From: Acidobacteriota bacterium
Lineage (GTDB): Bacteria > Acidobacteriota > Terriglobia > UBA7540
Direction: 5' to 3'
Length of the DNA: 64,000 nt
Assembly: GCA_902812415.1 (NCBI GenBank)
Contig: CADDZJ010000008.1
Span: 1-64,000, forward strand
The position numbers were made by a program, and so were the translations under genes. This document shows, piece after piece, positions 28,251 to 43,143 of this stretch. The notes beneath the pieces are model-generated. The model made no database searches and was not told the DNA's origin. It was given only the letters and a program-made list of their open reading frames with translations. Positions within the stretch are counted from its first letter, which is position 1. Each line of letters begins with the position of its first letter.

Positions 28251-28469
28251 ATGCGAACCACGATCAATATTGATGACAAGACATTGGACTTTGTGATGAA
28301 AGATACGGGCGCTGCAACGAAGACGGAAGCCATCCGTCGGGTTTTGGAGGAGTACGTTCGGCGAAGGAAAATCGAAAACTTAATTGCACTCAAAGGCAAG
28401 ATCAGGTTTGATATGGATTGGAAGACACTACGCAGAGGATGGACAAGGAACATCCGTGGTTCTCGTTGA
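28251..28469 (+). CDS. vapB: VapB-type antitoxin
   Basis: A 72-residue protein with an N-terminal ribbon-helix-helix: MRTTINIDDKTLDFVMKDTG, then ATKTEAIRRVLEEYVRRRK. The C-terminal tail (IRFDMDWKTLRRG) fits VapB proteins that wrap around the PIN toxin. It overlaps the toxin start by 14 bases in another frame. It would neutralise VapC and repress the operon. An A/T-rich region with TATGAT (28202-28207) upstream may be the promoter. Confidence 0.9.
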   Translation: MRTTINIDDKTLDFVMKDTGAATKTEAIRRVLEEYVRRRKIENLIALKGKIRFDMDWKTLRRGWTRNIRGSR

Positions 28470-28845
28470 CACGTCAGTGTGGATCGAATATCTGGATCGC
28501 GTTAATCCACTGGTCGAAAATGATCTTGAGAACCTTCTGCGGACCGGCCAAGTGGCCACCGCAGGTCTGGTGGTGGCGGAATTACGCCAAGGTTGCCGAC
28601 GACTCGACCAGGTCCGGCTGGTGACAGCAGCTCTGGAGCCATTGAAATACCTGGAAGTAGATCGCGCATGCTGGCTTCGCGCCGGGGAGTTAGTGGCCGA
28701 ACGGGCGGCAAAGGGGTTCGCGCTTGAAGTCGGAGATTGTCTTCTGGCCGCTCTTGCACTGCGTGAAAATTGCGAAGTTTTCACGCTCGATCGTGATTTC
28801 GAGCAGATTCCTGGAGTTAAACTCTACCGCCTTCGTAAGAACTGA
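28456..28845 (+). CDS. vapC: VapC-type PIN-domain ribonuclease toxin
   Basis: A 129-residue PIN nuclease starting at a GTG (VVLVDTSVWIEYLDR) with AAGGA about 7 bases before it. The four acidic residues expected for a PIN active site are present: Asp in VDTSVW, Glu in VAELRQG, Asp in EVGDCLLAAL and Asp in FTLDRDFEQI. VapC toxins cleave tRNA or rRNA when antitoxin is degraded. The longer open frame from 28384 overlaps VapB too far and is not used. Confidence 0.92.
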   Translation: MVLVDTSVWIEYLDRVNPLVENDLENLLRTGQVATAGLVVAELRQGCRRLDQVRLVTAALEPLKYLEVDRACWLRAGELVAERAAKGFALEVGDCLLAALALRENCEVFTLDRDFEQIPGVKLYRLRKN

Positions 28846-28862: not shown

Positions 28863-29630
28863 ATGAATGAACCGCATCTCAACCCCACATTAACTTTCCA
28901 GGAGTCGGAATCTGCGCCGCAGCTTCAGGAGAATCCGCGCCAATTCACACGATGGCAGCGCGCTCAGATTTTTGTAGCCGCCTGGCTGGGTTACTTTCTT
29001 ACCTGGGTTATCGGCCGAAGCCTTCGTTGGGAGGTTTTCGGTTGGGAAAACTGGGAATCCGCGAAGAAAGGCGGCAAGGGTCTGGTTTACACCTTCTGGC
29101 ATCGAGAAATTTGCGCGGCCACCTGGTTCTGGCGGAAGCGCGAGATTGTGGTGATGACCAGCCAGAACTTCGACGGAGAATATATTGCCCGCATCATCAG
29201 CAAGCATGGCTATGGCGCTGCGCGAGGGTCGAGTTCGCGCGGCGCGCGCCGCGCTCTGGTGGAAATGATTCAGAACTTACGACAAGGCCTGGATGCCGCT
29301 TTCACCATTGATGGGCCCCGCGGACCCCGCTTTGTCGCCAAGCCCGGGTCGGTGATTCTGGCAAAGGCGACAGGCGCCGCCATCGTGTGCTTTCACATCG
29401 CCCCGCGCCACGCTTATGTTTTCCAGAAAAGTTGGGACCTTTTCCAGATTCCTTTCCCCTTCACTCGCGCCGCCATCTTTATCGCCCCGCCCATCTTCGT
29501 CGCGGCAGATGCGGATGAGACCGAGCAAGCGCAAAAACTTCAGGAGGTGCAGAGCACCCTGGAAGGATTGCAACAACAGGGTAAGGCTTGGCTTGGTGGG
29601 GCCAAGAAATTTGTAGCGGCGGCTTTATGA
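28863..29630 (+). CDS. Lysophospholipid acyltransferase-like protein (DUF374 family)
   Basis: A 255-residue membrane-associated protein. The hydrophobic N-terminal segment (IFVAAWLGYFLTWVIGRSL) is followed by the DUF374 core: YTFWHREICAATWFWRKREI, MTSQNFDGEYIARIISKHGY, RGSSSRGARRALVEM and FTIDGPRGPRFVAKPGSVIL. The DGPRGP motif and upstream His resemble the acyltransferase HX4D-type site in lipid A-like acyltransferases of this family. It lies 17 bp after vapC. Its last codons run into a dispersed repeat (29621-29720), which may have replaced the original C-terminus. Confidence 0.88.
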   Translation: MNEPHLNPTLTFQESESAPQLQENPRQFTRWQRAQIFVAAWLGYFLTWVIGRSLRWEVFGWENWESAKKGGKGLVYTFWHREICAATWFWRKREIVVMTSQNFDGEYIARIISKHGYGAARGSSSRGARRALVEMIQNLRQGLDAAFTIDGPRGPRFVAKPGSVILAKATGAAIVCFHIAPRHAYVFQKSWDLFQIPFPFTRAAIFIAPPIFVAADADETEQAQKLQEVQSTLEGLQQQGKAWLGGAKKFVAAAL

Positions 29631-29720
29631 GTCTGCGTGAAAGCCACTCTGTAGCGGCGGTGTCCACACCGCCAGTTCTATTTTTCAATTGCTTCGGTGC
29701 TGAGGACAGCGCTGATACAG
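29621..29720 (+). repeat. Double-hairpin dispersed repeat (copy D)
   Basis: It aligns with 14873-14975 from GGCTTTATGAG through TGTAGCGGCGGTGTCC, the ACCGCC half-stem and GTTCTATTTTTCAATT, then continues into CGGTGCTGAGGACAGCGCTG like the second stem of the 20543 and 58927 copies. It overlaps the last three codons of the DUF374 gene. Confidence 0.7.
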
Positions 29721-29773
29721 CGCGTCTTCCAGTCGTTTTCAAGCAAACTCCTCGTGCCGCCACCCGCGTTTAC

Positions 29774-30184
29774 CTACTTACTGCACTCGCATCGGAACCC
29801 GTCGATCTTTCCATGGTGAACGGGATGTCGGTTATAAGTCCACTCCTTCCACCCAACATTGAGCTCTTTAGCCAAAAATCCTTTCTCTGCCAACTGCAGA
29901 GCTGCTTTCGCAGAGAGCTGTCAGTCGTGTCCCCAACAGTAGGTGACGATTTCTTTATCTTTGGGAAGTTGGGGAAGGATCTGATCGAACTCCTCCAAAG
30001 GCGCGCAGAGCGCCCCGGGGATGTGCCCGCTGGCGTAAGCCTCACGGCCACGTGTATCCAGCAGAACGAAGTCAAACTTCCCCGCTTCCACAGCCTTCAG
30101 CACGTCGGCTCTCTGCTTTTCGGCATGAAGTTTATGCGCGAAATAGTCGCGATTCGCGCGAATTTCATCCGCAGTAAAAGTCAT
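29774..30184 (-). CDS. Rhodanese-like protein with in-frame TGA at codon 88 (possible selenoprotein or nonsense mutant)
   Basis: The gene starts with AAGGAGGA and ATG 30184. It encodes a single rhodanese domain: FVLLDTRGREAYASGHIPGA, then KDKEIVTYCWGHD with the expected catalytic Cys83. At codon 88 (29921-29923) is TGA, after which the same frame continues with good homology-like sequence (QLSAKAALQLAEKGFLAKEL, then NVGWKEWTYNRHP, ending GFRCECSK) to TAG at 29774-29776. I expect Cys at this position in related rhodaneses (recalled YCWGPxCN-type motif). Selenocysteine is therefore possible, and a 7-bp stem lies downstream. A simple nonsense mutation (for example TGC to TGA) is the alternative. 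Total 136 residues, a normal length. Confidence 0.7.
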
Positions 30185-30442
30185 TAGTTCCTCCTTCTTT
30201 TAGGATTCAGGCGTCCTGCCACACCTACTTCGATTAGGGATGAACAATCGTCGATAAAGTTACACTGAAGCCGAAACCGTAACCGCCGGTGGCACTGGCA
30301 GGTACGTAGCTACCGCCACATTGGACGTTTTTATTATGTCGGCGATGTGTACCTTCTGGCGATAGGTTGGATGCATGAAAACTCCTGGATGGACTGCCAT
30401 TGAGGCGCATACACAAACCCAATGTATGCACCGCCGTGAGAA

Positions 30443-40935: not shown

Positions 40936-43143
40936 TCACAGCTTTTCCAGCCGCACGTAAACGTTATACTCCGGTTCCTTGCTGGCCGGGTCAAGCACGT
41001 GCGGCAACAGAACGTTCGCCTCAGGCCAATAAGCCTGGAGCGTGCGCGGCGCCACATCTTCCAGGCGACAGATGCCCTGGAATTCACCAACCGCCGACCG
41101 TAATCGAACTCGGTCGCCCTCGCGCAAGCCCCATTCAGCGGCATCTGCCGGGCAAATGAACACGTCGGTCCGGCTTCCGCCGGTCAGCACATCCTGCTGG
41201 CCAAGAATCATGGAGTTGAACTGCTGCCCGCGCCGCGTGGTGAGATAGAACATCGATTCCGGCAATTCAGGCGGCAGAACAAGAGGCGTAAAGACGGCGC
41301 GGCCATCCGGCGTGGGACATTTTCCACCGGTGCAAAGCATTGCGCCGCCATATTGCACCCAGTGCCCCTCTTTCTTCAGCCCGCCGATGCCGCGATACAT
41401 CGGAATGACGCGCTCCATTTCATCCCGAATCTGCTGGGCATGATCGAAATGGATCAGACGGCTCTTTTCAGCGCCGATCACGCGTTCAGCTATCAGCATC
41501 GGAATCTGCCATTCGGGCTTGGCCTCGCCGATCCTCGGCCCCGGAATTTCGGGTGAAAAGCGAATGCGACGCTCCGTATTTGTGATCGTGCCGCCCCCTG
41601 GCTGTTCATATCGAGTCTGACCCGGCAGCAGGAATACCGCTTCCCCCGGTTCAGCAAACATGGAACTGTTGAGAAAAATGTCCTGATGCACCCGGCAGCG
41701 GACGCTGGCAAGGCCCCTGCCTGCGCGTTCCGGCTCCGGCAAAGTTTCCAGGAAATTCCCGCCTTGAATATAAAACACGTCCAGCCCGCCCTGGAGCGCG
41801 CGATCCACCATTTCCGCCGCCGTAAGGCCGGGCAGGTCAGGAACAGGAAATCCCCAGAGTTCAGAAAACTTCCGCGCGTTTTCAGAGTTCACCGCGAGAC
41901 CGCCCGGAAACGCTCCGGGCACGCAACCCACTTCCGCCGCGCCCTGAACGCCGCTGTGCCCCCGAATGGGAACTAAGCCACAATTCTTGCGGCCCAGCAT
42001 GCCTCGCGCCAGAGCCAGATTCACCACCGCTTTCACATTCTCCACCCCAAAACGGTGCTGCGTGAGGCCCATGCTCCAGATAAAAATGGCCGTGCGCGCC
42101 CTGGAATAGGTCTCCGCCAACCGCCGCATTTCGTGGCGATTCAATCCCGATCCTCTTTCGAGATCGTCCCAACTCTGCGCGCTGACCGCTTCCTTCACTG
42201 ATTCAAAATCGCGCGTGCGCTCGCGGATGAAATCATGATCAAGCCAATCGCGTTCAATCAGCCATTTGAGAACCCCATTCAGGAAAGCGATGTCGCCTCC
42301 AACGCGCACCTGATAAAAATCATCCATCATCCGCGTGCCGAAAATGGCGCTGCGCACTACGGAGGGAACCCAGTAGCGCTCAAAACCCGGTTCGCGGTAC
42401 GGATTCACCGCCACAATGCGCGCGCCCTTCCGACGCGCATAATAAAGGTACTTCAGGGAAACCGGTTGATTGTTGGCCAGATTGGTTCCCAGCAGAAGGA
42501 TCAGGTCCGCGCCAATCCAATCGGAATAAGAGCACGTAGAGGCTGCTACGCCGATGGTCTGCTTCAGCGCGGTCGTCGAGGCCGCATGGCAAAGCCTCGC
42601 GGCATTATCGATGTTATTCGTGCCCAGCAGCCGGGCCGCTTTCTGCGCAACGTAATATGACTCGTTGGTGAGGCCGCGTGAGGTGTTGTAAAAAGCCATC
42701 CGGTCGGGCGGGCAATCTCGGAGGTGACCCGCGATGCCATCCAGCGCTTCGTCCCAGGAAATCCGCTTGAATCCCGGCTCGCCCTTGCGGCGCAGCATGG
42801 GATAGGCCAGCCGGCCCAGATTGCGAAGCTCCTGATTCCGAAGCTGGCGGAGCGGTTCGATGTTGTTCAGGCGCGCGTGATCCAGGGCCGGCATGGTATT
42901 CACACGAAGCAGCTTCAGCCGCGTCATGCAAAGATGAACGCCTCGGATGGTATTGTCGCGCAACCCCGCCGGGCCCAGAGAGCAGCCGTCACATACTCCG
43001 TGTCGCAGGATGCGCCAGGCGTAAGCCAAATTGTCGCGGTTCTCCCAGGCAACCTGGGCCATCTCCAGATAGTGATGAGGCTTCGTAAAGCCCAGCCCGA
43101 ATGGAATCCAGCTTACAGTGTCTTGTCTTCTCTCACCCGGCAT
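40936..43143 (-). CDS. YdeP/FdhF-like molybdopterin oxidoreductase (TIGR01701-type alpha subunit)
   Basis: A 735-residue protein of the molybdopterin dinucleotide-binding oxidoreductase superfamily. The N-terminus has VCDGCSLGPAGLRD, typical of the YdeP-like branch (fewer cysteines than ordinary formate dehydrogenases). It is followed by GFKRISWDEALDGIAGHL, DNAARLCHAASTTALKQTIG, LLGTNLANNQPVSLKYLYYA and a C-terminal MoCo-binding domain including TTRRGQQFNSMILGQQDVL and REGDRVRLRSAVGEFQG. YdeP is associated with acid resistance in E. coli and its reaction is undefined. No FdhD-like gene is in the window. Confidence 0.92.
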   Translation of the reverse strand: MPGERRQDTVSWIPFGLGFTKPHHYLEMAQVAWENRDNLAYAWRILRHGVCDGCSLGPAGLRDNTIRGVHLCMTRLKLLRVNTMPALDHARLNNIEPLRQLRNQELRNLGRLAYPMLRRKGEPGFKRISWDEALDGIAGHLRDCPPDRMAFYNTSRGLTNESYYVAQKAARLLGTNNIDNAARLCHAASTTALKQTIGVAASTCSYSDWIGADLILLLGTNLANNQPVSLKYLYYARRKGARIVAVNPYREPGFERYWVPSVVRSAIFGTRMMDDFYQVRVGGDIAFLNGVLKWLIERDWLDHDFIRERTRDFESVKEAVSAQSWDDLERGSGLNRHEMRRLAETYSRARTAIFIWSMGLTQHRFGVENVKAVVNLALARGMLGRKNCGLVPIRGHSGVQGAAEVGCVPGAFPGGLAVNSENARKFSELWGFPVPDLPGLTAAEMVDRALQGGLDVFYIQGGNFLETLPEPERAGRGLASVRCRVHQDIFLNSSMFAEPGEAVFLLPGQTRYEQPGGGTITNTERRIRFSPEIPGPRIGEAKPEWQIPMLIAERVIGAEKSRLIHFDHAQQIRDEMERVIPMYRGIGGLKKEGHWVQYGGAMLCTGGKCPTPDGRAVFTPLVLPPELPESMFYLTTRRGQQFNSMILGQQDVLTGGSRTDVFICPADAAEWGLREGDRVRLRSAVGEFQGICRLEDVAPRTLQAYWPEANVLLPHVLDPASKEPEYNVYVRLEKL

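Follow-up and report, generated by a model that had tools for sequence, protein, structure and literature searches.

A candidate selenocysteine-containing rhodanese with a conserved downstream hairpin in Acidobacteriota

Comparison with described rhodanese selenoproteins

Five forms of rhodanese selenoprotein have been listed, with the motifs UxxS, UxxG, CxU (NF041203), UxxG and UxxxxU (TsoB, NF045694), form 1 being the UxxS rhodanese-like selenoprotein WP_010941598.1 (PMC13188914). The DNA analysed here, a stretch of 64,000 nucleotides (the window), contains a gene for a 136-residue, single-domain rhodanese in which an in-frame TGA would place selenocysteine (Sec) at the end of the active-site loop while the catalytic Cys is kept. 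Judged by motif, this CxxxxU arrangement is not among the five forms listed in PMC13188914, and a literature search found no paper with the motif string CWGHDU.

The nearest listed form is TsoB, which shares the rhodanese domain and, as its motif implies, a Sec five residues past the catalytic position. By comparison, TsoB contains two Sec residues within a larger, rhodanese/DsbD fusion-like protein (model of 572 positions), whereas the window protein retains Cys83 and has 136 residues; it scores 24.2 bits against the NF045694 model, far below the curated cut-off of 805. The LYCAU rhodanese-related (seleno)protein, whose model NF041203 is the nearest in NCBIfam (56.7 bits, below the curated cut-off of 115), is likewise a rhodanese of small size whose Sec lies within the loop or close to it, but its listed motif puts Sec at C+2 rather than at C+5. 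The motif string of form 1 also fits U-Q-L-S of the window protein, and the two, compared by listed motif alone, could share the same site. Among Cys-containing proteins, the BH2092-like rhodaneses (PDB 3nhv, 3o3w) have the same fold and are about 33–37% identical to the window protein in structural alignment, with Cys in place of Sec in the loop YCWGPAC. Since CxxxxU is unlisted, although form 1 may represent the same site, we regard the protein as a variant not listed before or, failing that, as a separate clade of rhodanese selenoproteins. Acidobacteriota would thereby gain a further subfamily of selenoproteins, with genes that ordinary annotation would cut at the UGA.

Reading frame and conservation of the codon-88 TGA

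The gene occupies positions 29774–30184 on the minus strand, with an ATG at 30184–30182 located 5 nt downstream of a Shine-Dalgarno sequence, AGGAGG (30195–30190). The codon of the catalytic Cys83, the first residue of the active-site loop, lies at 29936–29938 and is invariant in Sec and Cys homologues; the in-frame TGA at codon 88 (29921–29923) follows five residues later in the motif YCWGHDU, and 48 further rhodanese codons lead to a TAG at 29776–29774. Translated with TGA as U, the protein is MTFTADEIRANRDYFAHKLHAEKQRADVLKAVEAGKFDFVLLDTRGREAYASGHIPGALCAPLEEFDQILPQLPKDKEIVTYCWGHDUQLSAKAALQLAEKGFLAKELNVGWKEWTYNRHPVHHGKIDGFRCECSK, and Pfam Rhodanese (PF00581) matches residues 27–116, on both sides of the TGA (E = 2.4e-15). 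The domain, the active-site loop and the catalytic Cys thus place it in the rhodanese superfamily. The Shine-Dalgarno sequence, the start, Cys83, the TGA and the 48 codons up to the TAG had been called in the first-pass annotation and hold up, with the strand specified as minus. An antisense open reading frame of 199 codons (29588–30187, plus strand) overlaps the entire gene; it is open in orthologues too and could lead gene-finding programs astray.

A search of 399 relatives identified 12 other genomes with a match at 68–78% identity containing exactly one in-frame TGA, and one further carrier (G081) in which the sequence reads N at the TGA site. A public genome scan added L054 and its near-duplicates, with all full-length matches titled Acidobacteria, and a phylum-wide search added L059 (59% identical) and L060 (56%), both from outside the class of the window and both with TGA at the same codon. 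The resulting alignment of 16 orthologues (13 genomes from the search of relatives, the window included, together with L054, L059 and L060) has TGA at codon 88 throughout, the 15 others being about 56–78% identical and all from Acidobacteriota. No intact close orthologue found has Cys or another sense codon at this position. By comparison, the aligned distant homologues (33–37% identical) have Cys in this column, as does BH2092 of Bacillus halodurans in its solved structures, in agreement with the Cys that had been expected at codon 88 in related rhodaneses. A UGA within homologous coding sequence, conserved in orthologues and replaced by Cys in other homologues, is a pattern used to recognize bacterial selenoproteins.

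Nei-Gojobori counts over twelve orthologues gave a pN/pS of 0.32 in the 27 codons upstream of the TGA and of 0.16 in the 37 codons downstream, or 0.15 past the hairpin described below. These low downstream values indicate that the region after the TGA is translated and constrained, and purifying selection evidently acts on it. Mutation, which the first-pass annotation had considered a serious alternative, is very unlikely because the TGA is conserved in the orthologues.

Selenocysteine machinery of the source genome

The source genome is a draft of 4.84 Mb (95.9% complete, 261 contigs). It encodes SelA (586 bits), SelB (372 bits), a tRNA-Sec (selC; 72.6 bits, anticodon TCA) and SelD (377 bits), so that selA, selB, selC and selD, on whose presence the first-pass annotation had made its reading depend, are all found. 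The selD frame (G000:C37:3685-4617, L020) itself carries one in-frame TGA, in the context KAAGUAAK, and by eye a possible hairpin, GAGUCC-AGGUAUUUU-GGACUC, whose loop is of the AGGU type, can be read after it; SelD of this genome is probably a selenoprotein as well. A formate dehydrogenase alpha-like molybdopterin oxidoreductase gene in the window (40960–42816, minus strand) has no in-frame TGA in the matched stretch and is therefore not evidently a selenoprotein gene.

Although selenoproteins of Acidobacteriota are little described in the literature found, selB is common, being present in 281 of the 399 relatives, and therefore is not specific to carriers of the rhodanese gene. All carriers among these relatives have selB except G033 (57% complete), which has tRNA-Sec, and G314 (73% complete), in which neither selB nor tRNA-Sec was detected at the thresholds used. 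At the strict threshold, tRNA-Sec was detected in 10 of the 14 other carriers searched; G117, G237 and G565 have selB and gave no tRNA-Sec at that threshold.

The machinery also bears on whether the UGA could be decoded as another residue, such as Trp, through suppression or an altered genetic code. We found no support for such decoding, and tRNA-Sec and SelB in the genome, Cys at the site in homologues and the conserved hairpin downstream of the UGA all argue against it, leaving it with hardly any probability.

A conserved hairpin downstream of the TGA

Downstream of the TGA lies a conserved putative SECIS hairpin, G-CUCUGC-AGUUG-GCAGAG (29885–29902, minus strand), whose core, CUCUGC-AGUUG-GCAGAG, spans 29901–29885 with its 5' arm at 29901–29896 and is often extended by one extra G-C pair. 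All 16 sequences carry the hairpin exactly or nearly so, the same 18 nt recurring with at most two changes, and the spacing from UGA to loop is fixed at 25 nt in all of them. Synonymous divergence falls to 0.13 in the six hairpin codons, +7 to +12 (spelling GCTCTGCAGTTGGCAGAG), the lowest of the windows of codons tested, compared with a median of 0.74 in six-codon windows, which is near saturation across the gene. In the published bacterial SECIS model, the loop has 3–9 nt, the stem 4–16 bp, the spacing is 16–37 nt and the minimum free energy is at most −7.5, with a G within the first two loop positions that is mostly followed by G or U (PMC13188914). The conserved hairpin fits this model, with a loop of 5 nt, a stem of 6–7 bp, the 25-nt spacing, a G as the second loop base with a U after it, and −7.8 kcal/mol when folded alone. 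A SECIS stem-loop shortly downstream of the UGA is a further hallmark of bacterial selenoproteins, and CUCUGC-AGUUG-GCAGAG is likely to be this element. The core stem shows no compensatory base changes, its variation being limited to G-U changes at two pairs, and the support is thus silent-site constraint, not covariation. Rfam SECIS_1 had no match, a result that is uninformative because no control genome gave a match either; an Rfam scan of the locus returned chance-level matches only.

The first-pass annotation had also proposed a SECIS-like hairpin downstream of the TGA, but from a different stem, UCUCUGC/GCAGAGA (29884–29916, minus strand), with its 5' arm at 29916–29910 and its 3' arm at 29890–29884. 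This stem does exist and occurs in the lowest-energy fold predicted for the window sequence; its 5' arm is formed by another copy of CUCUGC that lies closer to the UGA, and its 3' arm is shared with the conserved hairpin. In the naked window RNA it is the more stable of the two (−14.7 versus −9.1 kcal/mol), but it no longer folds when the 6 nt that follow the UGA, which would be inside the ribosome, are occupied or removed. It is not conserved, one of its central pairs (column 12 with 36) being broken in 13/14 aligned sequences. In the first-pass reading only the choice of stem needs correction, the conserved 5' arm lying at 29901–29896.

Several damaged copies were encountered. In L054 (3001–3414), a TTG within the hairpin loop, a short way past the Sec codon, has become TAG and adds a further stop in frame, presumably a recent loss or error. 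The parts of L056 (3001–3381) lie in two different frames, and in this decayed copy the hairpin and the single frame are lost together. In L035, the start and the C terminus are broken.

Since 15 related genes retain both the TGA and the RNA signal, the gene is best read as one for a selenium protein and not as a broken gene; with the machinery in the genome and Cys in homologues, the selenoprotein proposed in the first-pass annotation is very probably correct, the codon-88 TGA being read as Sec in a rhodanese. A pseudogene arising from a nonsense mutation, or an assembly artefact from a sequencing error, could be suspected from the draft state of the assembly in 261 contigs and from the decay of L054 and L056; the TGA common to 15 other orthologues, the purifying selection and silent-site constraint downstream of it and the complete Sec machinery make either exceedingly improbable.

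Predicted structure and proposed chemistry

An AlphaFold2 model built from 18 sequences, with Sec modelled as Cys, reached a pLDDT of 93.5 and a pTM of 0.86, and its best match among solved structures in Foldseek is the BH2092 rhodanese (PDB 3nhv/3o3w). In the predicted structure, residues 83–88 form the rhodanese active-site loop between strand 78–82 and helix 90–100. All 10 Sec orthologues in the alignment share Cys83, Sec88, Cys60 (codon 30005–30007, minus strand) and the C-terminal CxC motif of Cys132 and Cys134 (29783–29791, minus strand). Cys60 is absent from the five aligned Cys homologues, while CxC is also C-terminal in two of these five (L062 and L063).

In the cell, we infer, SelB carrying Sec-tRNA would bind the hairpin that lies 25 nt past the UGA, Sec would enter at codon 88 as the last residue of the CWGHDU loop, and translation would continue to the TAG. 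Termination generally competes with Sec insertion at Sec-UGA codons. A two-product gene, in which termination mostly yields an 87-residue form and Sec readthrough is minor or selenium-dependent, would be in keeping with this competition; however, a product ending at Asp87 stops within the active-site loop and lacks the last third of the fold, and the rest of the gene is under strong selection, so we give this reading a small chance at best.

For the full-length selenoprotein, the most likely chemistry is that the retained Cys83 accepts sulfane sulfur as a persulfide and that Sec88, in the same loop, resolves this persulfide or makes a reversible Se-S bond, with Cys60 and the CxC motif as relay or resolving thiols. 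Sec would sit at the other end of the rhodanese loop from the catalytic Cys, where a role of selenium in persulfide chemistry could be put to the test. More tentatively, the protein might belong to an unlisted, Acidobacteriota-centred family in which Cys and Sec bracket the loop and combine with Cys60 and CxC in a selenenylsulfide redox or persulfide relay, acting as a selenium-dependent reductase, not a plain sulfurtransferase. The short flanks revealed no conserved gene neighbourhood except among closely related genomes. Elsewhere in the window, an antitoxin-like small open reading frame overlaps a VapC-family toxin gene (28251–28845, plus strand; 77.2 bits, cut-off 80).
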